Shown here: positions 20,538-39,427 of the stretch, piece by piece | Layout of the letters: the number at the start of each line of letters is the position of its first letter | Numbering within the stretch: position 1 is the stretch's first letter | NCBI GenBank assembly: GCA_020831625.1 | Contig: JAFIGD010000028.1 | Location: 1-64,000 of the forward strand | DNA length: 64,000 nucleotides | Origin: Verrucomicrobiota bacterium | GTDB taxonomy: Bacteria > Verrucomicrobiota > Kiritimatiellia > SS1-B-03-39 > UBA6053 | Direction of reading: 5' to 3' | Program-made: the position numbers and the translations under genes | Notes under the pieces: model-generated | Databases searched by the model: none | Told to the model about the DNA's origin: nothing | The model's input: the letters and a program-made list of their open reading frames with translations, nothing else

Positions 20538-20566
20538 AGGAGCGGGAGGTGCATGGGGGGATGGAT

Positions 20567-20705
20567 CGGACAAATCAGGACACCTCTGACACCTCTGACG
20601 CGTGCTTGGGCACGGTTGCCTCGGACAAATCAGGACACCTCTGACACCTCAGACGCGTGCTTGGGCACGGTTGCCTCGGACACATCAGGACACCTTAGAC
20701 GCTTC
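20567..20705. repeat. 55-bp tandem repeat, about 2.5 copies
   Basis: Units beginning CGGACAAATCAGGACACC start at 20567, 20622 and 20677, exactly 55 bp apart; the third is truncated and diverged. Each contains GCGTGCTTGGGCACGG. The repeat sits in the 330-bp gap between the second PEP-CTERM gene and the amylase gene; the rest of the gap holds a terminator and a promoter. An open frame passes through it, but nothing supports translation. Confidence 0.85.
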
Positions 20706-20761
20706 TGAACGGTTGGAGGGGATGAGGTTGTTAGGACGTTGTGCCAAGCATGGTGTTTACG

Positions 20762-20865: not shown

Positions 20866-23800
20866 ATGCGCAAATTACCATTGATGTGGACTTTTTTTAT
20901 TTTATGGACCCTGCTTGCAGGGTTGTTTGCGCGTGCGGAGGTGATTCTTCAGTATTTTCAAATGCCCTGGCGGTCGATGACGCAGAAGATGCCGGAGCTG
21001 GCGGAGGCGGGGTATACGGCGCTGTGGCTGCCGCCTCCGACGAAGGCGAGCGGCGGGCTGTCGGTGGGTTACGACTTGTGGGATCCGTTTGATCTGGGCA
21101 ACAAGGATCAGCGGGGCGGGGTGCGCACGTTCTACGGCACCAAAGAAGAATTGCTGGAGATGATGGAGACCGCGCACCGTTTCGGGATCCGGGTGTATTT
21201 TGACAATATTATGAACCACCGGGCCTTTGACGTGCCGGGGTTCAATGAGAGCACGCCGATCGATATTTATCCGGGGATGCGCCCGGAGGATTTTCATTTG
21301 CGGGTGACCGAGGACGGTTTTTACCGGAAATGGGACAACACCCGGAACTGGAACGACGAGTGGCAGGTGCTGCATCTGGGGCTGTCGGATTTGATTGATA
21401 TCGCCCACGAGGCGGGCATGGGCGGGTGGAACCACAATTTCGGGCCGACCGAAGGCTCACACCATCCGGGGATCTCTTTCGTGCGGCATCCCGAGAATCC
21501 CGACTATTACGATTATGCGCCGAACGGGGATTTTGTGGGTTTCGGCAATGTGACCCAGGAGATGCTGGACAACAACCCCGGGGCCTACACCGAGAACGTG
21601 AACGCGTATCTGATGCGGGCGGTGCGCTGGAAAATGGCGGTGACCCGCGCGGACGGTCTGCGGCTGGACGCGGTGAAGCATGTGCCGGCAATTTTTTTCG
21701 GGGCAATGCCGAATGAGGATCAGTTTGTGGGCTATACCGGCAATATTCAGTTGTCGTTCATGCGGACGCGGGGATTTGATCCCGGGTCGAACCCGCGTGA
21801 AAGCCTGTTTGACATCAACAAGCCCCGCAACAGCGCCATGATTTTTGGAGAGCATCTTGGCACCCCGCCCGCGTTTGAGCCTTACATTGACCGGGGCATG
21901 CGGTTGAAGGACGCGCCGCTGCGGGACAGTCTGAACGGATTTTTGGGACAACCCTGGGGAAACCTTTCCGGGATGGATCAGCCGGGCTTCAGCGGTCATC
22001 CGGCGTTTAATCAGCACACAGGGGTGAGCTTTCCGCACAGTCACGACAGCGATTTCGCGAGTGCCCGCGAGTTGCAGTACGCCTACATCATGACCCGGGA
22101 AGGGTTGCCGATCGTGTACACGGACGGGTATTTCAAGGCGGGCACGCTGCAGGACAGCGGCGGAGCCTTTCCGCGTCACGCAAACACGAATTTTCTGGGA
22201 CAGTTTAATGATCCGCGGCTGCCGAATCTGGCCTATATCCGCGAGCATTTCGCGCGGGGCGGTCAGCTGGCCCACTGGTCCGACAACGACGTGGTGGCGT
22301 ATTCGCGGATCGACAAGCGGGACAGCGGCTGGGGTCAGCGGAATATTGGTGACGGCGACGGGTTCACGATGCTGTTCATGATGAATGACAATTATGCCGA
22401 CGGACAGGCGCGCGCGATTGGCCCGCTTCCGATTGCGGCCACGTCCGGCGGGTCCGACACCTGGCTGGTGAATTATTCGACCTATGGCGGGCCGTTTGGT
22501 GTCTGGGCTTCGCAAATTGCAAATGGCGAGGTGATCATCCCACCGGGCGGCTATCTGATTTTCTCCTTCCGCACCCCGGAGGGCTCCAGTCTTTGGGGTG
22601 GGAATGAAATCCGCATTTACCAGGACGGGGAAGAGCCGGACACGGTGCGGGTGACGCGGCGGGACGGTCCCAACGGTGACGCGTCGTTCAATCCCTACGG
22701 ATTGCCCAACCGCGGGTTTCCCGACGGGGACACTCCGGAACCGTTCCGGTATCAGATGAGCGTGCCCCGGATCACCTCGGGCGAAAATCTCCGCTTTGTG
22801 GCCCGGGCCAACGGGCTGACGGAAAACGTGATGATGAAACTCAACGGAGGGATTGATCTGAATTCGCAGATGGACATGGGGGTGACCGATGTGATTGGAA
22901 ACCGCGACAATCCGCCCGGGGCGACGAACGACACCTTTCTGGGATGGGAGCAGGCGAGATTTGTGCACCGTCAGCACGCGGAGAAATTTGCGGCGGCGGA
23001 CAGCACCCGCAATCAGATCGGTTCCGCCGGGGCGGAAACCTATCACTGGAACGGCGGAACGGATTTCACCATCGTGCAGGGGCCTGATGGGGCGAATCCT
23101 GAACCATTTAATAATTTCGGCGGAACAAGGGCCTCGTTTATTTTTCATAATCCGGCCGGGGATGTGGGCGGAAACGATCCGGGGCATCCGGGAGAGGACG
23201 ACAAACAGTTTGAAGAAGGTGCGGAGGCGATCACCCTTTGGGCCAAAACCAACTCCGTGGGCGGCGGTTTCCGCATGGTTGTGTACTATACGATGGACGG
23301 AACGAACCCCGAAGGAGCGGGCGGCGAGGGATTGGGGTCCACCCGCGCGGTGGCGATGAGCTACAGCCATGACGAGAGCGGCGACGACTGGTGGGGCACA
23401 GCCACGCTGCCGCTGCCGGAATCCGGTGAACAGCTTCGCTACAAAATCGGGATTTTCCGGGATGAAGTCGGCGGCTTTCCGGTCTCTTCAAATTTTCCCA
23501 CTGACCCGGATACCATCAGTTTTTCGCAGTCGATGCTGACCGTGTTTGAGGTGGACGGATTCGACGCCACCACCATCGAATATTTCCCCCACAACGACTG
23601 GGCGACGGACACGGTGCGGACCGGTTTGCAGGAGGGCATGAATTTCATTCAGGCGCGGGCGTTCTTGAACCGTTCCAACGGCGCGGCGTTGTACAACACC
23701 TTCAAACAGACTTTTTATCTGGATTTGGAGCGGCCGACCGGTGAGGTGGTGTTTCCGGCGGAGAACGATACCCTTTCTGATCAGGAATACGGTGTGGTGG

Positions 23801-26800
23801 TGCGCACCGACCGGACGGTGACCGAGGTCTGGTTCAACATTGTGGATTCGGAGGCCGGCAATGATGACGAAGTTACCGGCATGCTGAACGGAAACGGGCT
23901 GGGCGAAGATGAGGAGAGCAGTTGGGTTCGAGCGATTGAGACGCGGACGCCGAGTTTGGATGTTAACAGTGCGTATCCCCGCGAATGGCGCTTCAGTTAC
24001 CGCAATATTCCCGACGACGGTTCGGCCACGATCCGGGTGCGGCTGGTGGAGCTGAGTTCCACGCCGAGGGAGGAATGGACCGACACGATGTCGGATGTGG
24101 ACGGACATTTCACCACGTTGGAACGGACCGTGGACACCCGCGGTCCGGTGCAGCGCCTGTTTGCGGCCTGGCCGCAGAACGACGGGGATCTGGTGGGGGA
24201 AGGGTACGGGTTCAAGGCCTATTTCACCCAGGCGATGGCCGACGGCACGAATGAAGAGGAGCTGATTGAGCGCTTCACGATTTTCATCAACGGCAGTGCT
24301 CTGGGAAGATCGGACTACAGTATTGTGTATGGTGAGACATCCGACTACCACGCGCTGGCGTATGATTTGCCGAACCTGTTTGACGGCGATCCAGAAACGC
24401 TGCATGAAATCGAGGTGCGGTACAGTCACGACGGCGTGGTGCTGGAGGCCACCCGGCTGGTGCGGGCGGTGCCGACCCCGATTCCGCCGAATGTGGTGAT
24501 TGTCGATCCGGAGCAGTTCGATTCCAACGGGCGGCAGACCGAGATTATTCTGCCGGATGTGGCGAGTCCGACGCCGGAGGACCGCCAGTACCTTGTTCGG
24601 GTGGACACCGACATCTCGATTGAACATGTGTGGATCGAGTTCGCGAACGATGCGGGGACGGTCACCCAGCAGGGAAGTCCGGTCACCAGCGGCTCCAACC
24701 GGACCTGGACCTTTGTGTGGTCGGACATGGAGCCAGGCACCTATACCTTTACCGCCTACGGCAGCGAAACCGAAGGCGGGCCGGCTCTGAACAGTTCCAT
24801 GCGGACGATTCCGGTGCGGTTCCGTCAGATGGCGGACGCGGACAGCAGCGGCGATTCCGATAACGACGGACTGCCGGATGACTGGGAAATCACGCAGCGG
24901 CCGCTGCCGGAGACCGACAGTGAGGGGTGGAATAACGGCGATGTGCATGTGTGGATGATGAGCGGGCGGACGAATCCGCTGATGCCGGTGACCGACGGCG
25001 GCGGGCTGCCCGACGGGCTGCAGGTCGGGCTGACGGGGCCGATTGATCCCGCCGCAACCGACATCACCGTCGACACCAACGGCGACGGCTTCCCGAATTT
25101 CATTCCCGATTTGGATCCGCCGATTTTCAATACGCTGGACAACAGTGGTCACCCCCGGTTCAACTTCAACCGTTCCCGCACTGATTTGATCGGCGGGTCG
25201 ATGACCGATCCCTCCCGCGCCGACACCGACAACGACGGGCTGCGGGATTCGGAAGAGGATTTGAACCGCAACGGACGCGTGGACATCGGGCTGCTGGGTC
25301 CGGATGGTAAGGTCGAGGCCATTCTGATGCATCCGAACATCCCCACGGTCTACAACACTTCGCGGGTGGACCGGGAGGCGCTGCCGTCCAATGCGGTCTT
25401 CCTGGAAACCGATCCCAACAGCGCCGACACCATCGGCGACGGACTGCTGGACGGTCAGGCGGACCTCGCCCGCAACGGCCGGGTGAACCTGTATTTGCTT
25501 CATGAAAACGACAGTGTTGAGGTTCTGGATTATACCGACTGGAACAATCCGGATCACTTCGCATACAACCGGATGCCCAATGATTTGGATATTCTTTATT
25601 GGGACAACAACAATCCGCCGGCGCATATTCCGGACGCGTCGCAATACGATTTCGCTCCCATCCTGTCCCGCGCGGTGCATTGGGACGCGCTTTTCGCCGC
25701 GTACAACCGCGAGGGCACCGGCACCGCGCAGAGCGGTGGCTGGCCGAGGCTGCTGATCACGGAGACCGATCCGCTGGTGATCGACACGATTGGCGACGGG
25801 CTTCCCGATGGCTGGAAGGTCCGCTACGGACTCGATCCGCTGGATGACGGGGTGTACAACTGGCGCACCGGGGACGCGGGCGACCCGCGCAACGGTCCCG
25901 CAGGCGATCTGACCGGTGACGGGGTCACGAACCTGCAGCACTTCCTCGCCGGGACCGATCCGCGCATTGCGGTGACCGGTGTTGAGCCGCCCGAGGACAG
26001 CATCATTCTGGGGGCCGGGCCGGAAATCGGCGAGGTGAACGGCGTGACCCGCTTCGAGGAATTCATGGACTGGACCTGGGAGGATCTGCGGGCGCTGGAC
26101 GCCTTTGAAGGCGGCGGCTCCAATCATCAGGGCGGGGACATTTATCCGGCCTTTGACGGATGGGACTCCTCCCGCGACATGACCGCGTTTTATGTGCGGG
26201 ACGGCGGTCCTTCCTCTGCGGGCGGGGACGACCGGATCTATTTCCGCGTCGATTTCCATGATCTGCAGGCTTTCGCCGAGCAGGGGAATTTGGATCTGTA
26301 CGTGGCAATCAATTTCGGAGATACCCAGAATCCGCTGGGCGAACGGGTGTTGCCCGACGAGGTGGACACGCTCACCGACATGCGCTGGCGCGCGGTGGTG
26401 GCCGTGTACGAGTCGGCATCGGGCACGGTGTATGTGGACACCGATCCGAACAATAACACCACCACGTTCGGTCAAAGCCTCACCGCAAACGGCGTGGTGT
26501 CCCGTCCGGACTATTTCATCGGAGCGTATTTCAACTCCGAACTCGACGCGGTGGAGTTCGCGATTGACCGGCAGGCGGTTCTCGACGCGGGCTGGCTGGG
26601 AGATCCGGCCCAGTTGCGCTATCAGGTTTATACCACCAAGAGCGGCACGCAGAACAGTCCGCAGGGCCCGGGGGACATCGGCGGGCGGAGCGATATCCGC
26701 GATTCGATTATGAACGATTTCATTGCCGAGAACCACTGGTTCGCGCAGCAGGGGCTTCAGGGTGCGGGCAGCGTGCTGAATCAGTGGATTCCGGGCGACG

Positions 26801-29280
26801 CCTGGGCGGGCCGGGTGAAGGTGGCGCTGGTGGTGCACGGGAATCAGTCCATCCGCCGCGGGCAGGAGATTCAGGATCTGATCAACAACGGTCAGGGTGC
26901 GGGGTATTTCCGGCCGCTGGACACGCATGAGGTCTACGGTGTGCCGTTGAACCTGCACATCACCCCGACGCTGGCGGCGGCGATTCAGTGGGCCGCGTCG
27001 GATGTGTCCTGGCGCGACGGCCCCGCCTTTAATGAACGGCTTGGCGGTCTGATCCGCGACGGCGTGGTCCAGTTGTTCGGCACCACGTTCTCGGATCATA
27101 TTCTCGCGTATTTCGACAACAACTACAACGCCGACAACGTGGCGCTGGCGCACCGGATTCTCGAAGAGATTTATGATGTGGATATGAGCGGCGTTCAGGT
27201 GTTTTATCCGCCGGAACGGGTGCTGGACGACGGCGTGCTCGGGAAAATCCGCGATCTGGGCTTCAATTTCACCCTGGTGGATCAGATGATGCATATCCGT
27301 CACTGGTTCGGCCGCGAGGCGGCGCTGGGGACGGACGGGTACCGGATCAACAACATTCACGATGTGGGCACCTTTGCTCTCAACGACCGGGCGGGCAATG
27401 TAAAATTCGACATGCACGACAGCGGGGCGCCGATGGCGCTGCGGCGTCAGATGAACCGCATGGCCCGCAGCGGCACGCAGGATCAGGTGCTGGTGATTCA
27501 CAGCGCCTGGGAGGATTTTCTGGATGCGGACAACGCGGCGGCGTATGACGCGCTGGTGCGCTGGATGGCGAACCGGCCCTGGGTGGAGATCGTGACCCTG
27601 GAGGACATTGCCGCCGGGGAGGTGGATTTGAGCCGGGACGGGCAGGGAGATTCCTGGTGGCAGATTGACCGCGGTTCTCCCGCGCTCGACAAAATCGCGC
27701 AGGAGTGGATCCATTTCGCGAGCCGGGAGGACTATGACAACTGGTATGTGGGGGAGGACGGGTTCCGGCAGGGGCTGGACGGATTCCGCTTCCAGCGCCG
27801 TCCGGGAGAGGATGTGGAAATGGATTACGGGATGCAGGCCGCGAATACCGGCATTGCCGGCGCGGCGTGGACCGCGGTGAACGGGATTCAGAACGAGGAT
27901 CTTCGACTTCTCGCATCGGGCGTGCTTCACGCCTCGACGTTTATTACCGCGTTCCATGATCAACCGACGGTGGATCTGCGGAAGTTCAGTGACGGAAGTT
28001 ATATTTTCCCCGACGGCGGCTTCCGGGAACTGGCCGCTTTCGCGCGGCACAATCAGGCCCAGACCCGCCGGGCGGCGATTTACGCCCGCGTGGATCAGTG
28101 GGCGGTGAATCCGCCTGCGACCACACAGACTGCAGCGGAGAACATTGATCTCGACGGCGAGAACGAGTACCTGCTTTACAACCACCGGCTTTTCGCGGTG
28201 ATGGAGCGGACGGGCGGCCGCATGATCGCCGCCTGGATGCGGCATCCCGAGTCGGGGCGCGTTTTTCAGGTGGTGGGCAATCTCATGAACTACGCCGGAT
28301 CGGACACCGAAGCGGTGGGAACCACGCACGCCTCCGCATACCGCACCTCGGCGCTGAACGACTGGTGGGCAGGCACTTCGGAGTATGTGAACGATGTGTA
28401 CACGTTTGCGCCAACCTCCAACGGCTGGACGGCCACCTCGTCGGACGGCAACATCGTCAAAACCGTCACCCTGGCGGATGAGGCGGACACCTTTGAGGTG
28501 ATCTATGATGTGGATTCCGCTCTGAACAGCGGCACGCTGTTCGTGCGCCACGGGTTGTCGCCGGATCTGTTCAGCCTTCTAATTCATGGTCAGAACCGGC
28601 TCAGCAGTGAAGAGCACGAGGCCGGGGTGATGACCCTGCGGCAGGGGCTGGCGAATGATTTCCAGGTGGTGTCCCGAATCGATACCGGCGATCTTAATGT
28701 GTCCTTCCAGACCAGTGCCTCCGATGTGCCCGACGGCGAGACGTTTACTACGGTGAACATGCGCAATCAGGCGCAGACGCATCAGGTGGAGCTGGAGGGG
28801 CAGGGGACGTTCGGTTTCACGATGTCGTTCAGTCTGGAGACCGGACCCTGGTTCGATTCGGACAGCGACGGACTGCCGGACTGGTGGGAGGAGGAATACT
28901 TCGGCGGGCCGACCGCGGTGAGCGATCCTCAGGTGTTGGCCGCCAACGGCGTGAACACGATCATGCAGGCGTTTATTGCCGGGCTGGATCCGACCGATGC
29001 GCAGGCGCGTTTTGCCACGCCGATGCCGGAACCGCAGACCGGCGGCACGCAGAACGGAGTGCTGCTGCGGCTGCCGTTCGCGATTCAGGGACGGCGGTAC
29101 ACCATTTGGTACACGGATGATTTGATGGATCCCGAGTGGTTCATCGCCGCCGCGATCGAGGCCGCCGAACCGGAAGAGGAAACAGTCTGGCTGGATCAGG
29201 GGGATCAGAACCGCGACAATCCGCTGGATGTCGGCAAACGGTTCTATCATATCGAGGTTGAGTTGGCGCCGCCGGAGTGA
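20866..29280 (+). CDS. Giant secreted alpha-glucan hydrolase: GH13 plus GH57-like domains
   Basis: A 2,804-residue protein starting after GGAGG at 20866, with a signal peptide (about 1-25). The GH13 alpha-amylase domain shows region I D113/H118 ('DNIMNH'), nucleophile D268 ('LRLDAVKH'), acid E329 ('IFGEHLG') and H393-D394 ('HSHDSDF'). Beta-sandwich modules follow, then several DxDxDG calcium-type spacers (about 1324-1700) and a glucodextranase/DOMON-like module (about 1700-1945). A GH57-like barrel comes next: H1991 in 'VALVVHGNQS', nucleophile-type E2117 in 'YPPERVLDDGVL', D2139 in 'LVDQ'. Last is a GH57-style beta domain ('DLDGENEYLLYN', about 2365-2660) and a final 'DSDSDGLPDWWEEEYFGG' segment. 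The usual GH57 fourth motif (DDGEKFG) is not obvious, so activity of that half is uncertain. Confidence 0.88.
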   Translation: MRKLPLMWTFFILWTLLAGLFARAEVILQYFQMPWRSMTQKMPELAEAGYTALWLPPPTKASGGLSVGYDLWDPFDLGNKDQRGGVRTFYGTKEELLEMMETAHRFGIRVYFDNIMNHRAFDVPGFNESTPIDIYPGMRPEDFHLRVTEDGFYRKWDNTRNWNDEWQVLHLGLSDLIDIAHEAGMGGWNHNFGPTEGSHHPGISFVRHPENPDYYDYAPNGDFVGFGNVTQEMLDNNPGAYTENVNAYLMRAVRWKMAVTRADGLRLDAVKHVPAIFFGAMPNEDQFVGYTGNIQLSFMRTRGFDPGSNPRESLFDINKPRNSAMIFGEHLGTPPAFEPYIDRGMRLKDAPLRDSLNGFLGQPWGNLSGMDQPGFSGHPAFNQHTGVSFPHSHDSDFASARELQYAYIMTREGLPIVYTDGYFKAGTLQDSGGAFPRHANTNFLGQFNDPRLPNLAYIREHFARGGQLAHWSDNDVVAYSRIDKRDSGWGQRNIGDGDGFTMLFMMNDNYADGQARAIGPLPIAATSGGSDTWLVNYSTYGGPFGVWASQIANGEVIIPPGGYLIFSFRTPEGSSLWGGNEIRIYQDGEEPDTVRVTRRDGPNGDASFNPYGLPNRGFPDGDTPEPFRYQMSVPRITSGENLRFVARANGLTENVMMKLNGGIDLNSQMDMGVTDVIGNRDNPPGATNDTFLGWEQARFVHRQHAEKFAAADSTRNQIGSAGAETYHWNGGTDFTIVQGPDGANPEPFNNFGGTRASFIFHNPAGDVGGNDPGHPGEDDKQFEEGAEAITLWAKTNSVGGGFRMVVYYTMDGTNPEGAGGEGLGSTRAVAMSYSHDESGDDWWGTATLPLPESGEQLRYKIGIFRDEVGGFPVSSNFPTDPDTISFSQSMLTVFEVDGFDATTIEYFPHNDWATDTVRTGLQEGMNFIQARAFLNRSNGAALYNTFKQTFYLDLERPTGEVVFPAENDTLSDQEYGVVVRTDRTVTEVWFNIVDSEAGNDDEVTGMLNGNGLGEDEESSWVRAIETRTPSLDVNSAYPREWRFSYRNIPDDGSATIRVRLVELSSTPREEWTDTMSDVDGHFTTLERTVDTRGPVQRLFAAWPQNDGDLVGEGYGFKAYFTQAMADGTNEEELIERFTIFINGSALGRSDYSIVYGETSDYHALAYDLPNLFDGDPETLHEIEVRYSHDGVVLEATRLVRAVPTPIPPNVVIVDPEQFDSNGRQTEIILPDVASPTPEDRQYLVRVDTDISIEHVWIEFANDAGTVTQQGSPVTSGSNRTWTFVWSDMEPGTYTFTAYGSETEGGPALNSSMRTIPVRFRQMADADSSGDSDNDGLPDDWEITQRPLPETDSEGWNNGDVHVWMMSGRTNPLMPVTDGGGLPDGLQVGLTGPIDPAATDITVDTNGDGFPNFIPDLDPPIFNTLDNSGHPRFNFNRSRTDLIGGSMTDPSRADTDNDGLRDSEEDLNRNGRVDIGLLGPDGKVEAILMHPNIPTVYNTSRVDREALPSNAVFLETDPNSADTIGDGLLDGQADLARNGRVNLYLLHENDSVEVLDYTDWNNPDHFAYNRMPNDLDILYWDNNNPPAHIPDASQYDFAPILSRAVHWDALFAAYNREGTGTAQSGGWPRLLITETDPLVIDTIGDGLPDGWKVRYGLDPLDDGVYNWRTGDAGDPRNGPAGDLTGDGVTNLQHFLAGTDPRIAVTGVEPPEDSIILGAGPEIGEVNGVTRFEEFMDWTWEDLRALDAFEGGGSNHQGGDIYPAFDGWDSSRDMTAFYVRDGGPSSAGGDDRIYFRVDFHDLQAFAEQGNLDLYVAINFGDTQNPLGERVLPDEVDTLTDMRWRAVVAVYESASGTVYVDTDPNNNTTTFGQSLTANGVVSRPDYFIGAYFNSELDAVEFAIDRQAVLDAGWLGDPAQLRYQVYTTKSGTQNSPQGPGDIGGRSDIRDSIMNDFIAENHWFAQQGLQGAGSVLNQWIPGDAWAGRVKVALVVHGNQSIRRGQEIQDLINNGQGAGYFRPLDTHEVYGVPLNLHITPTLAAAIQWAASDVSWRDGPAFNERLGGLIRDGVVQLFGTTFSDHILAYFDNNYNADNVALAHRILEEIYDVDMSGVQVFYPPERVLDDGVLGKIRDLGFNFTLVDQMMHIRHWFGREAALGTDGYRINNIHDVGTFALNDRAGNVKFDMHDSGAPMALRRQMNRMARSGTQDQVLVIHSAWEDFLDADNAAAYDALVRWMANRPWVEIVTLEDIAAGEVDLSRDGQGDSWWQIDRGSPALDKIAQEWIHFASREDYDNWYVGEDGFRQGLDGFRFQRRPGEDVEMDYGMQAANTGIAGAAWTAVNGIQNEDLRLLASGVLHASTFITAFHDQPTVDLRKFSDGSYIFPDGGFRELAAFARHNQAQTRRAAIYARVDQWAVNPPATTQTAAENIDLDGENEYLLYNHRLFAVMERTGGRMIAAWMRHPESGRVFQVVGNLMNYAGSDTEAVGTTHASAYRTSALNDWWAGTSEYVNDVYTFAPTSNGWTATSSDGNIVKTVTLADEADTFEVIYDVDSALNSGTLFVRHGLSPDLFSLLIHGQNRLSSEEHEAGVMTLRQGLANDFQVVSRIDTGDLNVSFQTSASDVPDGETFTTVNMRNQAQTHQVELEGQGTFGFTMSFSLETGPWFDSDSDGLPDWWEEEYFGGPTAVSDPQVLAANGVNTIMQAFIAGLDPTDAQARFATPMPEPQTGGTQNGVLLRLPFAIQGRRYTIWYTDDLMDPEWFIAAAIEAAEPEEETVWLDQGDQNRDNPLDVGKRFYHIEVELAPPE

Positions 29281-29288
29281 GTGCGACG

Positions 29289-29378
29289 ATGAAAGACCAC
29301 GGATGCTTGGGGCAGGGTGTGGAGAGACCACGGATGAAAGACCACGGATGCTTGGGGCAGGGTGTGGAGAGACCACGG
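29289..29378. repeat. 45-bp direct repeat, two copies
   Basis: The unit beginning ATGAAAGACCACGGATGC occurs at 29289 and again at 29334. It belongs to the 'ACCACGGATGA' family seen further along this gap and at 37.6 kb. Confidence 0.8.
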
Positions 29379-29460
29379 ATTAACATGGATGAGGAACGGG
29401 GGGATAAACCACGGATAGCCTTGCCGGACCACGGATACGCCTTTCTTAATCATAATCGAT

Positions 29461-30364
29461 TTCGTGCAGGCTGAGCTTGGTCGGCCGACCGCACGCATCT
29501 CATATTAGGACAGGATGGGCAATAAACACCGCGCATCGAGCTTGCTCGTTGCGCGGAAGTATCTCATACCGCTGGATAAGATGGGTTGCGCTCCACGAGC
29601 AAGCTCGAAGAGCGCATATTTTTTGAGGGGGGGCTGGACGTGGAATGAGATGATTGCGCCCTTTGTCCCGAGCAAGCTCGTAGGGCGCGGAAGAGACCAC
29701 GGATAGAAGACCACGGATAAAGATTGGGGGAGTTCCAACGGATAGCTTGCGCCGGACAACGGATGAATGCGGGGAAAGAACCACGGATTGCCTTGCCGGA
29801 CCACGGATGTTGCTTCTTAATCTTAATCTTAATCTTAATCTTAATCTTAATCTTAATCTTAATCGTAATCGATCCCAATCAAAAGGGCCTTAATTTTGAG
29901 GGACTTCGTGCAGGCTGAGCTTGCTCGGCCGACCGCACGCATCTCATTTCAGGACCGCATGGCCAAAAGACACCGCGCAGCGAGCTTGCTCGTTGCGCGG
30001 AATCATTTCATCTTTCTGACAGGATAAGATGGGTTGCGCTCCCCGAGCAAGCTCGGAAATCGCTTTTATTGGGGGGGAGCGGGCGGTTCGTGGTATGAAA
30101 TGGTTGCGCTCCCCGAGCAAGCTCGGAGAGCGCGAAAGAGACCCCGGATAGAAGACCGCGAATGAAAATGGAGGAGTCCAAAACGGACGTGTGCGCCGAA
30201 GCCGGAGGCGTAGTTGCATGGCTTGCGCCGGACAACGGATGAATGCGGGAAGGAAACCCTGCAAATGGCCTTGCCGTCCCGCGAATGGGTATGGAGGAGT
30301 CTAAAACGGACGTGTGCGCCGAAGCCGGAGGCGTAGGTGCATGGCTTGCGCCGGACAGCGAATG
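29461..30364. repeat. Duplicated repeat modules in a 1.35-kb gene-free region
   Basis: A module of about 260 bp occurs at about 29463-29720 and, diverged, at about 29907-30180. Both start GTGCAGGCTGAGCTTG and contain several CGAGCAAGCTCG or CGAGCTTGCTCG palindromes next to GCGC motifs. A shorter unit containing GACGTGTGCGCCGAAGCC and GGCTTGCGCCGGACA occurs at about 30183-30243 and 30308-30358. The whole gap 29281-30568 contains no convincing gene; its short open frames are repeat-derived. Confidence 0.75.
29815..29870. repeat. TTAATC hexanucleotide microsatellite
   Basis: About nine uninterrupted CTTAAT units lie between the two larger repeat modules, ending in a variant CGTAATCG. Hexamer arrays of this kind change length by slippage. 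No coding role is seen. Confidence 0.9.
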
Positions 30365-30568
30365 GATATGGGGCAAAGGGGTGGCATCCCTCAGGATGCG
30401 CATTGTATGGTGAACAGGTCAAAGGGAGGAATGAAAGAGGGGGAGGAATGAAAGAGGGGTTTAAACAGGAGGCAGCAGAGAAAACAGAGCAAATTTAACG
30501 CATTTCCACTCTGCTCTCTGTTAACAGAAGTGGTTTCAGCAGCCACGCAGGAATTTTTAAACTCTCCC

Positions 30569-30634: not shown

Positions 30635-33600
30635 ATGAATACCAACCTTTTGAAGAAAATTGTACTAATCCCGTTGATGCTGTGGGCGGTGGTTTTGGGG
30701 CAGGTGGCGAATGTCTGGCATTTGCCCGCGACCTTTGAGGCGCAAATTGAAAGCACCATGCGGGCACCATTGTACGAGGTCAAAGACAATGATGTGTTGA
30801 TTCACCAAGGCTTTTTCAAAGACGGCGGCTCGGGGGGGGACCAGATCGGAGGCGAAGTCAAGTATCGTGTGGTTTCCCGGGACGGAACGGAGGGAAGCTG
30901 GCAGTCGGTTGGGTTGGGTTTCGGCTCAGATGTGGGTGGAAACCAATATTGGAACGCTACCATTCCGACCTCCGATATCGATGCGAAGGATGTGATTGAG
31001 TATTATGTCGTCACAACATTTTCCGATCGTGACACGACGTATCTGTACGGTCCGGATATTGGAGGCAGCTCCACCACCGATGATGAAGAAACGGCGCAAT
31101 CAAACCCCTTTTCCATCCGCAACCGTCCAGGCTGGATTTTTTACGGCAACAACCGGATTGTTTCCGGCAACACGATTCAAGTGAGGCTTCGGAGCGGGTA
31201 TATCGGTCCAGATAATGATCCGGCCGGCCGCTGGTCCACACACGGAGCGATCTATTTCACCACCGACGGCACGGATCCGCAGGGTTCATTGGGCGTTGCC
31301 TCCGGCAGCACGACGGCGGTCGCGTTGATTGCGGACGGAACCGAACCGGACGGCAGCGGCAACGGGAATGCGCTCTGGTGGCAGGGGAGCATGGTGGACG
31401 TGCTGGATGGCCTGGAGTTCGGGGATGAGGTCCGTTATCGCATCGGTCTTTGGCACGAGGACACACTGGAAGAGAAGTTTGCCGATCATGCCGCCGGACC
31501 GGACAATCAGATATTCACGTTTCAAAACGGTATTCCCGGGAATCCGTCACTGGAAGTCAACGGCATCAATGCCGATTACGGGGTGTTGAATTTTTACATT
31601 GATGAGGTTCAGGATACGGAGTTTCCCGAGTTGAATATCACCCTGTATCCGGGAGAAAGCGCCACTCAGGTGGAGGTTTACACTAATCTCAACAACCGGG
31701 ACCGGGCGCACCTGGATTACAACAACGACGGATATGAGGACGGAATCATTCCGGTCGACGGAAACACCATAACAGTTTCTGACACGGAGGCCTATTTTCA
31801 AGCCTACACGATGACACCGGACGGCCCCGGAACCTTTCGGTTGACCTTGCCGGTCAACAAAACCGGTGCCTACCGGCTGACGGCACGTTTTCGGGAGGAT
31901 GAGAACGCTCCCTGGACCTGGCTGGGGGATTCCGGCTACCGCGATCTCGCGATTGTGGTGGCCCCCCGTATTGCCCGGGACATGATTATGTATGAGCTGC
32001 ATGTGACCAATGCGAACGCGACCGGGCCCACGTTTGCCCAGCGTGGGACCTTTGAAGACCTGCATGATCCCAATAACGACCGCATCACCTTGACGTGGAT
32101 GCGGGACATGGGGATCAACTGGATCTGGTTTCAGCCGTTTCATCCGCAGGGGCTGGACGGGAAAGACCTTGATCCGGTTACAGGTCAGGAATTTGACCCG
32201 GGCAGTCCGTATTCCATTCGGAATTTTTGGGAGATCAATCCGCTGTATACGCGGGAGTGGGATGACAGCCTTCCCGGCGCGATTACCCATCCCGACAATT
32301 TTTCCGCCGCGATGCAGGCGTTTCAGGATTTTGCGGTGGCTGCGGATGAGAAGGGCGTATACCTGATGCTCGATTTTCCGTTTAACCACACCGCCCCGGA
32401 TGTGGTGCTGGCGGACAAGGGAATCGAGCTGTTCGCGCCCGAGGGGCATGACTGGCAGGCGGGAGATTTAATCCGGGACCGGGTTCCGGGGTTCTTTTCC
32501 ACCGCCGGAGGCAGCGGACCCGCATACTCTGCACCCGCAAGCGGGCCGGGTGATATCGCGGTCGCACCCGACCGGAATGATTTTGGCAAGTGGACGGATG
32601 TGCGGGATGTGTTTTTCGGAAATTACGCCACGTTAGTGACGGGAAACCCCGATGCGGGCACCAGCCGGTCCGTTGTGCAGAACGAAGAGGATTGGATGGA
32701 TTATGGATCCCTGCTGAACTCCCCGGACCAGGTCACGCTGAATGTCTGGCGCTATTTCGGTGAAGTGCTTCCGTATTGGATTGAGCAGTCCGGGCACCGC
32801 GGGAATAACGATGGAGATCCCTCCTGGGATCTGGAGACCCGGCTGGCGGAGGATGCCAGAGGGATTGACGGATTGCGCAAGGACTTCGGGCAGGGACTGC
32901 CCCCGCAGGCGATGGAGTATATCATCAACCGCACCCACAGTGTGAAATGGAACTTTGTCTTCATGAGTGAAAGTTTGGACGGCGGGGCGGTGACCTATCG
33001 CTCCAGCCGTCATTTCGCGGTGTTGAATGAAAATATCGTCTTTCCCTTGTCGGTGGCGAACACGGCGCCAGCCTATCGTCAGATTTTTGATGACCGCCGA
33101 AACGCGTACGGGCAAAGTCTGGTGTTGCTGAACAATCTCTCCCATGACGAGCGTCCGTATGACGATCCGTGGGAGGCGCTGATCCGGTATGCCACGGTCA
33201 GCACCAACGACGGATCGCCAATGATCATGTACGGTCAGGAAATCGGCGCGGCCGCCTTGGATGAGGGCAGCGGGATCGGATCCTGGGATCATTATGAGTT
33301 AAATTTCGGGAAAAACATTCCGCATTTTAAAAAATGGAATTCCATGCAGCCCCAGTGGAACGCCTGGGCGGATAATGAGCTGGGTGTTCGGTTTCTGCGT
33401 CCGGTGTACGCCGCGATCGGGCAGGCCCGGGAGTTCAGTCCGGCGCTGCGGTCGAGCAACCGCTGGTTTTTGAACCGTCATGCCGACGATGCGCCCCGGA
33501 ACGAGATCTTCTCGGTGGCAAAGTATACAGAGCCCTTCACCCCACTGGCGCATCAGGATGTGGTGCTGGCGTTTACCAATCTGACCCGGAATTCCGGTCA

Positions 33601-34531
33601 ATCGGACACCTTCGGGATCCCGGGCGCGCTGGCGGATCGTCTTGGCCTTGCGGATGGGCGGATCTATAACGTGCGGAATATCGCGGCGTATATCGGGGAG
33701 AACAATCAGTTCGCGGCGCGTCGGGATGTGGGGCTGTGGGGGGGCGGCAGGGACAGGACTGACATGATTGACAATGGGGTGTTTGTGTCGCTGAATCCGG
33801 TGCCCTCCATTAACAATGACCCTTGGACCGGAGCAAATGACACTCCGCTCGCCCCTTACGAGGCGCAGTTCCTGAAGGTCTATGATGTGACTCCGCCGCC
33901 GGGGGCGGCTTCCGCGCCAGCCACGCAGGATAATTTGACTTATTCCGCCACCGGCGAGCTGGTGATGACCTGGGACACCGACTTCGGGCCTCACGACAAT
34001 GTGGCGGCGAATGAGGTGGTGATTCGGGATGACGAAAACAACGTGATTTTCGAAGGCGTGCTGGAAGGAGCGAACGCATTCGTGTGGGAGGTGCCCTCCG
34101 AACACTACGGCAAGACGGTCACGGTGCAGGTGACCCCGGTGTCGGTTGCCGGAATTTCCGCCGAGACCGCCAGCAGTGTCAGCAGCACGGTGGTGTTGCT
34201 GGATCCGGACGGAGACGAAGATAACAACGGGGTCAGCAATTTCGCTGAATACATCGCCGGCACGGATCCCTTTGACGCGGAGAGTGTGCTTCGCGCCGAA
34301 AACATCGCCGTGACCGGCTCGGTGTCGGCGGTGTCTTTGCAGGGGGTGGCCGGCCGCCGATACCGGCTGGAGTACAGCGAGGATTTTCTGGCGGGCGCGC
34401 CGGAACCGACCTGGCTGGACGCGTCCGGCTGGGTGGAGGTCAATGAGAACGGCCTCGTGGTGCTGGAGGATCTTGAAGAGGATCCGCCCAGCCGGATTTA
34501 CCGCATTGTGGTGCAGCGCACCGAAATTTAA
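30635..34531 (+). CDS. Secreted multidomain GH13 glycosidase
   Basis: A 1,298-residue protein with a signal peptide (about 1-22). N-terminal beta domains (about 30-450) include 'IYFTTDGTDPQ', which closely parallels a segment of the 2,804-residue neighbour ('YYTMDGTNPE'). The GH13 barrel follows: D580/H585 ('LDFPFNH'), nucleophile D750 ('LRKDFGQ'), acid E779 ('FMSESLDGG') and H837-D838 ('LSHDERP'). A fibronectin-like region and a DxDxDN spacer 'DPDGDEDNNGVSNFAEYIAGTDP' precede a C-terminal domain common in PVC secreted enzymes. It probably acts on starch or related alpha-glucans; exact specificity is not readable. The pullulanase gene starts 28 nt downstream, so both share the operator-controlled promoter. 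Confidence 0.87.
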   Translation: MNTNLLKKIVLIPLMLWAVVLGQVANVWHLPATFEAQIESTMRAPLYEVKDNDVLIHQGFFKDGGSGGDQIGGEVKYRVVSRDGTEGSWQSVGLGFGSDVGGNQYWNATIPTSDIDAKDVIEYYVVTTFSDRDTTYLYGPDIGGSSTTDDEETAQSNPFSIRNRPGWIFYGNNRIVSGNTIQVRLRSGYIGPDNDPAGRWSTHGAIYFTTDGTDPQGSLGVASGSTTAVALIADGTEPDGSGNGNALWWQGSMVDVLDGLEFGDEVRYRIGLWHEDTLEEKFADHAAGPDNQIFTFQNGIPGNPSLEVNGINADYGVLNFYIDEVQDTEFPELNITLYPGESATQVEVYTNLNNRDRAHLDYNNDGYEDGIIPVDGNTITVSDTEAYFQAYTMTPDGPGTFRLTLPVNKTGAYRLTARFREDENAPWTWLGDSGYRDLAIVVAPRIARDMIMYELHVTNANATGPTFAQRGTFEDLHDPNNDRITLTWMRDMGINWIWFQPFHPQGLDGKDLDPVTGQEFDPGSPYSIRNFWEINPLYTREWDDSLPGAITHPDNFSAAMQAFQDFAVAADEKGVYLMLDFPFNHTAPDVVLADKGIELFAPEGHDWQAGDLIRDRVPGFFSTAGGSGPAYSAPASGPGDIAVAPDRNDFGKWTDVRDVFFGNYATLVTGNPDAGTSRSVVQNEEDWMDYGSLLNSPDQVTLNVWRYFGEVLPYWIEQSGHRGNNDGDPSWDLETRLAEDARGIDGLRKDFGQGLPPQAMEYIINRTHSVKWNFVFMSESLDGGAVTYRSSRHFAVLNENIVFPLSVANTAPAYRQIFDDRRNAYGQSLVLLNNLSHDERPYDDPWEALIRYATVSTNDGSPMIMYGQEIGAAALDEGSGIGSWDHYELNFGKNIPHFKKWNSMQPQWNAWADNELGVRFLRPVYAAIGQAREFSPALRSSNRWFLNRHADDAPRNEIFSVAKYTEPFTPLAHQDVVLAFTNLTRNSGQSDTFGIPGALADRLGLADGRIYNVRNIAAYIGENNQFAARRDVGLWGGGRDRTDMIDNGVFVSLNPVPSINNDPWTGANDTPLAPYEAQFLKVYDVTPPPGAASAPATQDNLTYSATGELVMTWDTDFGPHDNVAANEVVIRDDENNVIFEGVLEGANAFVWEVPSEHYGKTVTVQVTPVSVAGISAETASSVSSTVVLLDPDGDEDNNGVSNFAEYIAGTDPFDAESVLRAENIAVTGSVSAVSLQGVAGRRYRLEYSEDFLAGAPEPTWLDASGWVEVNENGLVVLEDLEEDPPSRIYRIVVQRTEI

Positions 34532-34559: not shown

Positions 34560-37500
34560 ATGGCATCGAAACAACCGAAACCCGCGCCGTTTATTCACCC
34601 CGTCTCATTGGCCATTACCATCAGCCTGCTGTTCGCGTTCGGCTTCCTGTGGTTCACCCGGCAACCCGATTCCGGCGAAACGGCTCCGATGGAGCCGATT
34701 GTGATTGGGACTTCCGGGGTTGTGGACGATCGGACAAATCAGACGGATCAGACAAATCCGACTGATCAGACCGATCCGTCGGATCGGACGGATCAGTCGG
34801 ATGTGGTGGCAGACGCGCCGGTTGTGCTTCCGCCGCGCCCGGATTTGTTGGACACCATTCTGCGGCCGGATCATCGGGAGATTCCGGGTATGGTGGCGAC
34901 GAACTGGCTCTATTACCGCAATGACACCGGCGGTGAAATCCGCGTCGCGGGCTCCTGGGACGGATGGGAGGGGCGGTTTGCGTTGACGCCGGTCGCGCGG
35001 GGGCTGTACGCGTTTGATGTGAGCGGATTTGATGTGCCCTTCGGCCGCTATGAGTTTAAATTTATTGTGGACGGCCAGTGGGAGCCGGGCGAGAACCGTC
35101 TTTTGCATTTGAATGAGCACGGGCTGATTGAACGGCCGCCGCAGGTGATCGCGCAGGCCCTGATTGAAGAGGACCGGCTGATTCGTATCCGTCTGAACGA
35201 AATCCCGGAAGCGCGGGAGGATGTTTCGATTGAAATGGAGCCGGATTACGGCGTGGCCCGGTTGGAATGGGTGGAACCCGAAGTGGCGCCGCATGTGGTC
35301 GGATACCGCTTTGAAGATCATGATGTCGAGTTTGTCTTCTCGCCTGAAACTTACGGTCTTTCCGCCGATGCGGTGCAGTGGGTCAGTGTCGCGGGGGCGT
35401 TCAACGGATGGGATCCCAATACGGAACATACCCGGATGCGTCGCACGGAGGATGACGAGTGGACGGTGCGAATTCCCTACGCCTACATTGACGGCAAGAT
35501 CACTGAAGAGCACATTTTCTTTAAATTTGTGGTGAACGGCGAGTGGATGAACCCGCCCGCGGACGCGCCGAATGCGCAGGTGCAGCCGGGTACGCCACAC
35601 ATGAACCTGACGCTGCCTCGGGGCGGGGCGGGACGGCCGGAACTGCTGATTCATACGGTGCGCGACATCGATCTGCGCGATCCGCCGGGGCTGATTTTCG
35701 ACGGACTGCACGAGCGGCGTTTGCGCGCTCGCCCCAGTCCGGACACGATTCTGAACCGGTATGTTTCCGACAAGGCACTGGGTGCCACCCTGGACCGTGA
35801 AGCCGATGAGACGCATTTCCGGCTGTTCTCTCCGCGGGCGGTTCAGGTGGATCTGGGGCTGTTTGACGGACCCTATCACCGCACCGCCGATGATGTGGCG
35901 GTGGAGCCCGCGGAAATTCTGCCGATGACGCGGGACGGGGACGGCGTCTGGGAAATCGCGCTGGACGGTCTGCGGATTGGCCAATATTACGCCTTCCGGG
36001 TGTCGGGACCGCGCGGGGACGGGGAGGGGTTCAATCCGAACCGCTGGCTGGGCGATCCTTACGCGTTTGCGGTTTCGCTGGCGGAGGGCAACAGTATTGT
36101 CACGGATCTGAGCACGCCGCAGGCGCCATGGCGGGGATGGACGCCGGAGGCGCGCGCTTTGCGGATTCCCTGGGAGGACATGGTGATTTACGAGACCCAT
36201 GTGCGTCACTTCACCTGGGACGATTCCTCGAAGGTTCAGGCGGATCTGCGCGGAAACTATCTCGGGTTTCTGGCCACAGAAGGCCTCGGCACCGGACTGG
36301 ATCATCTGAAAGCGCTGGGGGTGAATGTGGTGCAGTTCATGCCGATTCATGAATTCCCGAACGGCTTCGAGGTTCGGCATGACTGGGGATACGCGACGGA
36401 TTTCTTTTTCGCGCCGGAATCCTCCTTCGCGCAGAATCCCCGAGAGGGTTCTCAGGTGTGGGAGTTCCGTCACGTGGTGAACGAACTCAAGGAACACGGG
36501 TTCGCGGTGTTTCTGGACGTGGTGTATAATCACATCGGCGGGGTGAATATGTTCAACGCGATTGACCGCCTGTACTATTTCCGCCTGAACCCCGACTTCA
36601 CCAACATGAACTTCAGCGGGGTGGGAAATGATGTGCACAGTGAGCGGCCGATGGTTCGTCGGCTGATTGTGGAGAGTGTGCTGTTCTGGGTGGAGGAATA
36701 TGGGATCGACGGCTTCCGCTTTGATTTGGGCGAGTTGATCGACGACGACACGCTGCTGGAGATTGAGCGGGAAATCCGCGCCAAATATCCGCATGTGGTG
36801 CTGCATTCCGAGCCATGGAGTTTTAGGGGACATCACAAAGACTTCATCGGACGCACTACCTGGGGCGCGTGGAACGATGAGTTCCGCGAACCCGCGAAGC
36901 GTTTTGTCTCCGGGCGCGGGGATGTGGAAAACATGATGCGCGGTATCCGCGGCAGCGTGGAGGGCTGGGCGCAGCATCCGCTGCAGAGCGTGAACTACAT
37001 GGAGAGTCACGACGACTATTCCCTGGTGGACGAGCTGACCTCGAATCCCGAACGGGACGGGCGTGAGCTGTCGTACCGCGACGAGCGGATCCACAAGCTG
37101 GCGGCGACGCTGATTATGGGGTCGCTGGGAACCCCGATGATCACCGAGGGTCAGGACTGGATGCGCAGCAAGCACGGCATCCGCAACACCTACAATCAGG
37201 GTGATGAACTCAACGCGCTGCGCTGGGATGAGCGGGACCGGCCGCACGCCCGGGAGGTGACCGACTATTACGCGCAGATGATTCATTTCCGGCTGAGCGA
37301 CGCCGGCCGCGCCCTGCGGGTGGCGGAGAATCCGGGTATGGACTATGTGCGGTTCATTCATGACGGATCCGAAACCGCGCTGGGATGGATTGTCAATGCC
37401 AACAATGAGCGGCCGGATGTGCCGGCGGTCATGATTCTGATGAACGCCGGAGAGCATGAGGCCATCTTTGAGGCCCGGTTGCCGAGCGGCCGCTGGATTC

Positions 37501-37625
37501 AGGTCGGTGACGGCGATCAGGTGGTTTCCGACGGAGTTCCCGGCGGGGTCATGTTCAACGGCGGCCGCACGCAATCCTTCACCGTGCCCGCGCGGACGGC
37601 GCATATTTTCCGCAACGGGCTTTGA
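34560..37625 (+). CDS. Membrane-anchored type I pullulanase-like GH13 enzyme
   Basis: A 1,021-residue protein with one N-terminal membrane segment (about 13-33) and a polar linker rich in TDQT/SDRT repeats (about 57-82). Two AMPK/CBM48-like glycan-binding modules follow ('VAGSWDGW' near 129, 'VAGAFNGWD' near 279), then a CBM48 domain ('THFRLFSPRAVQVDLGLFDG') and the GH13 barrel. Catalytic residues are D722 ('FRFDLGE'), E751 ('HSEPW') and H817-D818 ('ESHDDY'), with 'DVVYNHIGG' as region I. This is the layout of pullulanases/debranching enzymes (GH13_14), which cut alpha-1,6 branches. It follows the GH13 gene by 28 nt in the same operon and would act at the outer face of the inner membrane. Confidence 0.9.
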   Translation: MASKQPKPAPFIHPVSLAITISLLFAFGFLWFTRQPDSGETAPMEPIVIGTSGVVDDRTNQTDQTNPTDQTDPSDRTDQSDVVADAPVVLPPRPDLLDTILRPDHREIPGMVATNWLYYRNDTGGEIRVAGSWDGWEGRFALTPVARGLYAFDVSGFDVPFGRYEFKFIVDGQWEPGENRLLHLNEHGLIERPPQVIAQALIEEDRLIRIRLNEIPEAREDVSIEMEPDYGVARLEWVEPEVAPHVVGYRFEDHDVEFVFSPETYGLSADAVQWVSVAGAFNGWDPNTEHTRMRRTEDDEWTVRIPYAYIDGKITEEHIFFKFVVNGEWMNPPADAPNAQVQPGTPHMNLTLPRGGAGRPELLIHTVRDIDLRDPPGLIFDGLHERRLRARPSPDTILNRYVSDKALGATLDREADETHFRLFSPRAVQVDLGLFDGPYHRTADDVAVEPAEILPMTRDGDGVWEIALDGLRIGQYYAFRVSGPRGDGEGFNPNRWLGDPYAFAVSLAEGNSIVTDLSTPQAPWRGWTPEARALRIPWEDMVIYETHVRHFTWDDSSKVQADLRGNYLGFLATEGLGTGLDHLKALGVNVVQFMPIHEFPNGFEVRHDWGYATDFFFAPESSFAQNPREGSQVWEFRHVVNELKEHGFAVFLDVVYNHIGGVNMFNAIDRLYYFRLNPDFTNMNFSGVGNDVHSERPMVRRLIVESVLFWVEEYGIDGFRFDLGELIDDDTLLEIEREIRAKYPHVVLHSEPWSFRGHHKDFIGRTTWGAWNDEFREPAKRFVSGRGDVENMMRGIRGSVEGWAQHPLQSVNYMESHDDYSLVDELTSNPERDGRELSYRDERIHKLAATLIMGSLGTPMITEGQDWMRSKHGIRNTYNQGDELNALRWDERDRPHAREVTDYYAQMIHFRLSDAGRALRVAENPGMDYVRFIHDGSETALGWIVNANNERPDVPAVMILMNAGEHEAIFEARLPSGRWIQVGDGDQVVSDGVPGGVMFNGGRTQSFTVPARTAHIFRNGL

Positions 37626-37972: not shown

Positions 37973-39427
37973 ATGAATCATTATCAAGTTAATTTACGAT
38001 CGATCGCCTGCACCGCTCCGCGCAATCCTTTGGAGGCGCTGCGTGAGTTCCGGGACGGAGCGCCTCCCCGGGTGTCGCCGCTGGCGGGGCTGGCGGAGGG
38101 TCTGGAGCTGATTGCGGATCTGGGGGTGGAGCTGCTGCATGTGATGCCGCCGTTTCAGATGGGACAGCTCGGACGCAAGGGGATCGGCTCTCCGTATGCG
38201 GTGTCGGATTATTCCGTCATCGATCCGGAGTTCGGCACGGCTGCCGAGTGGTATGAGGTGGTCCGCCGCGCGCACGCCTTTGGCATGAAGGTGATTCTCG
38301 GCTATGTGCCCAACCACACCGCGCGGGATCATGTCTGGACCCGGGGCGATCCGGAAAACTATATCCGCGACGAAAACGGTGAGCTTGGATATGACTTCGA
38401 CTGGTCGGACACTGCCAAGCTGAATTACCGCCATCCGCCCCTGCGCCGTGCGGTGACGGACATGTTGAAGCAGTGGCTTCAGGGCGAATGCGCCGAAAGC
38501 GGCGTGGACGGTTATCGGGTGGACATGGCCCACATGATCAATGATCTGGGGTTCTGGAACGAGTGCATTCCCGAGCTGGAGGCGGCGGCGGGGGACCGAG
38601 GACTGCTGCTGATGGCGGAATGCTACGGGTTCGACCGCAATGTGGATTTGTTCAGGCGCGGGTTTCAGGCCGCCTATGATGATGATTTTTACAAAATCGC
38701 CCAGTACGGATACGGGCGGGACGCGCAGGGGAACAGTCTGCTCATGCTGGATCCGGAGGCCGCGAACAACGGCGACTTCGCGCCGAGGCTGGCGGAATGG
38801 AAACGGGGCGGCATCGCGGCGGCGGTGCGCGGGCTGATTCAGGCGTATCAGGATCAGGCGCCGGACCGGTGGCTCGCGCGCTATGTGGACAACCATGACG
38901 AGGGCAGGGGATTGTACCGTTTCGGGGAGGGCGCGTGCCGGGTGATGATGGATCTGGCGGCCTGTATGCCGGGATCGATTGTGTTCACGCTGGCGGGTCA
39001 GGAGGCCGGAGCCCTCAACCGGCCGCCGATTCATGAATACATCGGCCTGTGCGACAAGGGATACCGCACGCCGGACGGCGGGCGGGTGGACGGCATTGAA
39101 TTCGAGGGAAATCTGTTTTTCCGAACCTCGGAAGAGCGGGGGAGGCTGATTTCCGAGACTCGGAAACGCTTCGCGCTCCGCTGTGAGCATCCGGCGTTGG
39201 TTTCCGGTTCGGTTTCGTTCATTGATGTCGGCGAACAGGCCCCGGAGCCGGAGCGGACGGTGGCCGCGTTTGTGCGGGCGGGAGACGGGGAACGTCTGGC
39301 CTGTCTGTTCAATTTGGGGCATGAGGCCCGTACCCTGGCGAATCCGCCTTCCGGCAAAATTGTATATGGTGAAAATGGAGACGGGATCCTGCCCGCTTTT
39401 TCTTGCCGGATTCTCCACATGCCCTAA
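37973..39427 (+). CDS. Cytoplasmic GH13 alpha-amylase-like enzyme
   Basis: A 484-residue GH13 enzyme without a signal peptide. Region I is 'GYVPNHTARDHVW', nucleophile D184 ('YRVDMAHM'), acid E216 ('LMAECYGF') and H308-D309 ('VDNHDEGR'). A short beta C-domain follows ('FNLGHEARTL'). It would hydrolyse or rearrange imported maltodextrins inside the cell, next to MalQ, encoded 40 nt downstream. The 'NHTARDHVW' and 'SDTAKLNY' blocks are common to many small GH13 enzymes, so subfamily and product are uncertain. No LacI-like operator precedes it. Confidence 0.88.
   Translation: MNHYQVNLRSIACTAPRNPLEALREFRDGAPPRVSPLAGLAEGLELIADLGVELLHVMPPFQMGQLGRKGIGSPYAVSDYSVIDPEFGTAAEWYEVVRRAHAFGMKVILGYVPNHTARDHVWTRGDPENYIRDENGELGYDFDWSDTAKLNYRHPPLRRAVTDMLKQWLQGECAESGVDGYRVDMAHMINDLGFWNECIPELEAAAGDRGLLLMAECYGFDRNVDLFRRGFQAAYDDDFYKIAQYGYGRDAQGNSLLMLDPEAANNGDFAPRLAEWKRGGIAAAVRGLIQAYQDQAPDRWLARYVDNHDEGRGLYRFGEGACRVMMDLAACMPGSIVFTLAGQEAGALNRPPIHEYIGLCDKGYRTPDGGRVDGIEFEGNLFFRTSEERGRLISETRKRFALRCEHPALVSGSVSFIDVGEQAPEPERTVAAFVRAGDGERLACLFNLGHEARTLANPPSGKIVYGENGDGILPAFSCRILHMP

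Follow-up and report, generated by a model that had tools for sequence, protein, structure and literature searches.

A GH13-GH57 fusion of Verrucomicrobiota whose GH57-type unit mostly lacks the canonical proton donor

Background

Comparable in overall build to the protein reported here are the bifunctional amylopullulanases, long secreted alpha-glucan enzymes provided with accessory domains. To our knowledge, each of them carries one catalytic family, either GH13 or GH57, and never both. In the open literature searched no paper on GH13-GH57 fusions was found, and only a genome paper names the two families side by side. The proton donor of GH57 enzymes is an aspartate at strand beta-7, at position 20 of the conserved regions (CSR-4; PMC6037648). 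The same source describes GH57 'like' groups devoid of one or both catalytic residues, in which typical GH57 action is judged very probably impossible; the GH57 groups tabulated there are 443-728 residues long.

The locus described here lies in a 64,000-nucleotide stretch of verrucomicrobial DNA (hereafter the window), and encodes a chain in which both families occur. Its GH13 module shares the catalytic barrel and the triad with the alpha-amylases 1mwo (Pyrococcus woesei) and 1hvx, which are among its strongest matches, but carries additional segments in the barrel region and is followed by a C-terminal extension of ~2,200 residues. The GH57-type unit resembles the T. litoralis 4-alpha-glucanotransferase (1k1w/1k1x) in fold, in the succession of barrel and beta domain, and in the nucleophile Glu placed after strand beta-4. 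In contrast to that enzyme, to which it is 12% identical, it has Ala2214 in place of the donor Asp, and is part of a secreted-type chain of 2,804 residues including GH13. With the 'like' groups it shares the GH57 fold and an incomplete catalytic machinery; unlike the tabulated groups, the domain is joined to an intact GH13 module via long spacers.

The gene and the GH13 module

The gene spans positions 20866-29280 of the forward strand, on which the modules and neighbouring genes given below also reside, and translates without stops as one intact frame into a product of 2,804 residues, with a calculated mass of about 310 kDa and a pI of 4.4. The single polypeptide proposed in the first-pass annotation is thereby confirmed, and all the residues cited there (D268, E329, D394, H1991, PPERV at 2115 including E2117, DLDGENEYLL at 2428) are located as claimed. 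A GGAGG sequence is found a few bases 5' of the ATG at 20866, and the ATG is followed by a hydrophobic N-terminus which by inspection resembles a signal peptide (residues 1-24, 20866-20937, MRKLPLMWTFFILWTLLAGLFARA); this giant starch-cutting protein is probably exported to the outside. The program-listed ORF starts at an alternative GTG at 20602, and would encode 2,892 residues. The ATG is the better start, because the GTG-started extension passes through 55-nt direct repeats. These are present in three tandem copies at 20559-20723, directly upstream of the gene, and overlap the extension in part.

Residues 25-580 (20938-22605) match GH13 enzymes in Pfam (6e-10), NCBIfam and the PDB (GH13 amylases, 9e-24). 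The nucleophile D268 (21667-21669), the acid/base E329 (21850-21852) and the third acid D394 (22045-22047) fall in regions II, III and IV and are unchanged in 42 of 42 fusions. Sequence match and D/E/D triad both place the module in GH13, and the catalytic set is complete, as initially read. The module may be taken as an active alpha-amylase cutting alpha-glucan.

Residues 581-1325 (22606-24840) form a series of Ig-like beta domains (AlphaFold2, pLDDT 81.1), for which Foldseek returned mainly multi-Ig and cadherin-type proteins. Residues 1326-1711 (24841-25998) make up a TSP3-type spacer, putatively calcium-binding. A motif scan identified five DxDxDG-type motifs within 1330-1648, and one more at 2664; in the homologue at locus L123 a weak TSP3_bac match stays under the cut-off. 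The calcium-type spacers noticed earlier are hence real as motifs, and are preceded by the Ig-like stack. A conserved beta-rich module (residues 1712-1960, 25999-26745) connects to the GH57-type barrel, and is found before GH57 in unfused relatives too. The chain ends with a TSP3-like motif and a small tail (residues 2661-2804, 28846-29280; motif scan, by eye).

Fold of the second barrel

The second barrel (residues 1961-2270, 26746-27675) lies about 1,700 residues after GH13, and its assignment to GH57 is borne out by Pfam, profile-profile and structural comparisons. PF03065 is above the cut-off in the search of the own genome (E 1.3e-4). The isolated domain scores 22.7 bits against a cut-off of 21.2, while the whole 2,804-residue protein scores 17.1 bits, under the cut-off. 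Matches to the Pfam GH57 family at E<=0.01 were obtained with 22 of 30 homologous domains, and a profile of the family aligns to canonical GH57 members from its own phylum with an hhalign E of 4.7e-8. A model of residues 1712-2661, predicted from 65 sequences (pLDDT 93.9, pTM 0.92), shows a (beta/alpha)7 barrel followed by a segment with several helices (residues 2271-2420, 27676-28125) and by a beta domain (residues 2421-2660, 28126-28845), as expected of the GH57 fold. The beta domain belongs with the barrel, as formerly suggested, and the match to 1k1x is long. In Foldseek the best solved structure is the T. litoralis 4-alpha-glucanotransferase (1k1x/1k1w, E 4.9e-20), followed by GH38 mannosidases, which belong to a related superfamily, and by GH57 amylopullulanases; in fold, the barrel is not better matched by another family. 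The superpositions have low TM-scores (0.31/0.45) and a high rmsd, plausibly because the domains of the multi-domain query are differently arranged. Run against PDB sequences, the GH57 profile gave only a marginal match to GH57 (7e1y, E 0.066), a result superseded by the fold search, and both a group of GH57 proteins of ~725 residues and single sequences were discarded as alignment templates, matches being too weak.

Catalytic residues of the GH57-type unit

Two of the hallmarks of GH57 are in place. H1991 (26836-26838) stands at the end of strand beta-1 in HGNQ, a degenerate form of the HxHxP motif of CSR-1, and E2117 (27214-27216), in PPERV, is the glutamate nucleophile at strand beta-4. Both are unchanged in all alignable fusions and in all unfused relatives, and the pocket residues H2031, D2139, H2143 and W2147 are invariant as well. 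The donor is missing, position 2214 (27505-27507) being Ala. Three observations locate the donor at this position. Profile alignment pairs HSAWEDF of the window with FMDYETF of canonical GH57 proteins; these columns hold FDDWEA in unfused relatives, in parallel to DDGE; in the model, residue 2214 (model residue 503) ends strand beta-7. The profile of unfused relatives alone gave no usable alignment with canonical GH57, and the donor column rests therefore on joint profile, shared motif and model.

Column 2214 is highly variable among the alignable fusions (15 N, of which one, at L152, stems from poor alignment, 13 D, 11 M, 3 A, 3 H, 2 R, 1 S, 1 P). In turn, D is found in 12 of 12 genuinely unfused ORFs ('DDWEA'), a count from which L127 and L145 were left out, as their GH13 part sits in an adjacent frame. 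The closest kin of the window have A, R, S or H, a pattern that reads as that of a site free of catalytic constraint. The most frequent residue, N, reproduces the D352N exchange used for substrate-complex structures of a GH57 amylopullulanase, as the entry titles indicate. Since 2214 is not conserved among the fusions, no plausible canonical acid/base takes the place of the missing DDGE(KFG) motif, and what the first-pass annotation had set as an objection to its own proposal largely holds for catalysis, not for the fold. Membership in GH57 by fold stands; the full catalytic definition (PMC6037648) does not apply, the nucleophile being present and the donor absent. Of the 'two activities' originally proposed, the GH13 one is backed by an intact triad, and the invariance of E2117 and H1991 favors the other; the unconserved donor column speaks against it. 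Labelling fusions of this sort as bifunctional amylases is to be avoided.

We favor, with a probability of about 0.55, the reading that a degenerate GH57 unit which binds glucan is linked to an active GH13 amylase by the Ig-like and TSP3 spacers. In the model proposed, an exported multi-domain protein would degrade alpha-glucan through its N-terminal module, and the Ig-like domains and TSP3 spacer would hold GH13 apart from the C-terminal unit (beta module, GH57 barrel and beta domain). The latter derives from a GH57 enzyme and in this protein has no donor, but has kept the nucleophile and the other pocket residues; it would grip alpha-glucan chains without useful turnover, keeping substrate near the GH13 site. 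The unit is most likely a binder because the proton donor is missing and the rest of the pocket is retained; the protein would most likely work as an amylase to which a very large starch-binding part is attached. Both halves might conceivably act on one starch granule. The full invariance of E2117, and the large invariance of E2216 (27511-27513), the conserved Glu two residues past 2214 which alignment and profile equate with the E of DDGE/DYET, would seem to exceed the apparent needs of binding. More tentatively, the GH57 lineage fused to active GH13, with its nucleophile and other pocket residues but no proton donor, could be viewed either as a specialised device gripping or feeding alpha-glucan or as a catalyst that works without a donor, such as a site which traps glucan covalently or transfers it.

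That both halves are active, the GH57 acid/base being non-canonical (E2216, the fusion-specific D2121, or water), is unlikely. Such hypothesis may draw on the invariance of E2117, on the retention of E2216 in 41 of ~49 fusions, on the strong purifying selection reported below, and on D2121, four residues past the nucleophile, which is acidic and fusion-specific in 54 of 57 sequences; the P. furiosus GH57 alpha-galactosidase exemplifies that the identity of the donor can be uncertain within the family (PMC6037648). However, the eight residue types of differing chemistry found at 2214 imply that no replacement acid is shared there, and E2216 has its counterpart in a conserved Glu that is not the donor in canonical motifs.

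Distribution and evolution of the fusion

A scan of 84,980 species genomes yielded 120 encoding stretches, of which 79 loci were kept. In about 50 of these GH13 and GH57 lie in one frame, and homologous fusion ORFs of about 2,600-3,300 residues, with the same full-length architecture, occur in many genomes of Kiritimatiellae, Lentisphaerae, Opitutia (including the isolate Cerasicoccus arenae), Spartobacteria, Akkermansiaceae and unclassified Verrucomicrobia. The survey for similar fusions advised at the outset was thus fruitful, and the notion that the two families are rarely fused must be revised within this group, where the architecture is widespread and of common origin. These loci document that two unrelated alpha-amylase families are joined in a fusion conserved across a whole lineage. 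Unfused relatives reside in Planctomycetota, Sumerlaeia, Phycisphaerae, Gemmatimonas and Eisenbacteria, and paralogues in some Kiritimatiellae. In the class of the window, 54 of 288 genomes host a family member, either fused or unfused.

In the tree, fusions form one clade, cleanly apart from unfused GH57 relatives. Donor states were mapped on a tree built without the donor-motif columns. D-bearing fusions are restricted to one supported group (17 rows, three of them H or N), mostly of Opitutia and Verrucomicrobiae, and at least four changes of state are required, loss and regain being indistinguishable on the tree. Members of this subclade, with D at 2214, may be catalytically complete in the GH57 half, so that degeneracy need not accompany the fusion in every case. 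Every unfused relative has the donor, most fusions do without it, and a single fusion subclade carries it; this natural experiment makes the transition from a catalytic to a binding module directly testable.

Purifying selection acts on both halves. Values of dN/dS were obtained by plain Nei-Gojobori counting, synonymous sites being partly saturated. Between the window and close homologues they are 0.06-0.10 in the GH57 barrel and 0.04-0.07 in GH13, and reach 0.18 for the barrel against a more distant homologue. Loss of the donor is therefore not simple decay, and the barrel has been kept for function. GH13 and GH57 distances co-vary (r 0.61; shuffle maximum 0.20). Recent decay of the GH57 half into a remnant, or a fusion produced by faulty assembly, is highly improbable: though the donor residue is missing, and the fusion is split into separate frames at L127 and L145, either view is already contradicted by the identical fusion in dozens of independent assemblies, by dN/dS values well under 1, and by the covariation of distances.

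Additional loci deserve mention. In L127 (2152-10849) and L145 (4238-12763) the GH13 and GH57 frames overlap or adjoin, by frameshift error or genuine split. L116, L122 and L133, apparently from genomes G005, G010 and G007 of the family of the window, do not group with the window copy but within the Opitutia-rich subclade that bears D; horizontal transfer or ancient paralogy are suggested as alternatives. L104 (1-12499) hosts a tandem pair of fusion-type GH57 genes, the first cut at the contig end, with Met and Asn in the donor column. In L163 (2642-12121) an unfused-type GH57 ends a frame of 3,160 residues from which this GH13 is absent; a chondroitinase B-like gene is adjacent. A further group of frames of 1,250-1,600 residues with GH57 matches occurs in the same class (contigs G127:C45, G033:C1, G023:C9 and others). 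A frame of 26,627 residues including the fusion (L106; G188:C61, MHBK01000061.1) was rejected as an artefact, 72,000 of 80,708 bases being masked N.

Genomic neighbourhood

The gene sits in a starch-degradation cluster. It is followed by genes for a GH13-like protein of 1,298 residues with a signal-peptide-like leader (30635-34531), a pullulanase-type GH13 with CBM48 and a glycogen-binding domain (34560-37625), a GH13 enzyme (37973-39427) and a GH77 4-alpha-glucanotransferase (malQ, 39468-40991). Homologues of the 1,298-residue protein, which by eye ends in a TSP3-like motif and tail comparable to those of the fusion, lie close to it in some ten further loci. The pullulanase, GH13 and GH77 neighbours support alpha-glucan as the substrate, to which the family assignment also points.

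It is rather improbable, and more so than activity of both halves, that the GH57-like half, as a relative within the GH38/GH57 superfamily, binds or acts on another sugar, such as an alpha-galactoside or an algal glycan, and thereby directs the amylase to mixed biomass. The GH38 alpha-mannosidases returned by Foldseek would fit, as would the varied neighbours of the unfused relatives sampled, among which chondroitinase B and mannonate dehydratase, alpha-glucan genes being absent nearby. On the other hand, GH57 alpha-glucan enzymes rank first in both the structural and the profile comparisons, and alpha-glucan genes adjoin the window fusion and several other fusion loci.

The intergenic region 3' of the gene (29288-30400) is itself rich in direct repeats, and includes a 45-nt tandem pair, a 123-nt pair, an array of the 12-nt sequence TCTTAATC, and copies of GGTTGCGCTCCCCGAGCAAGCTCGGAGAGCGC.
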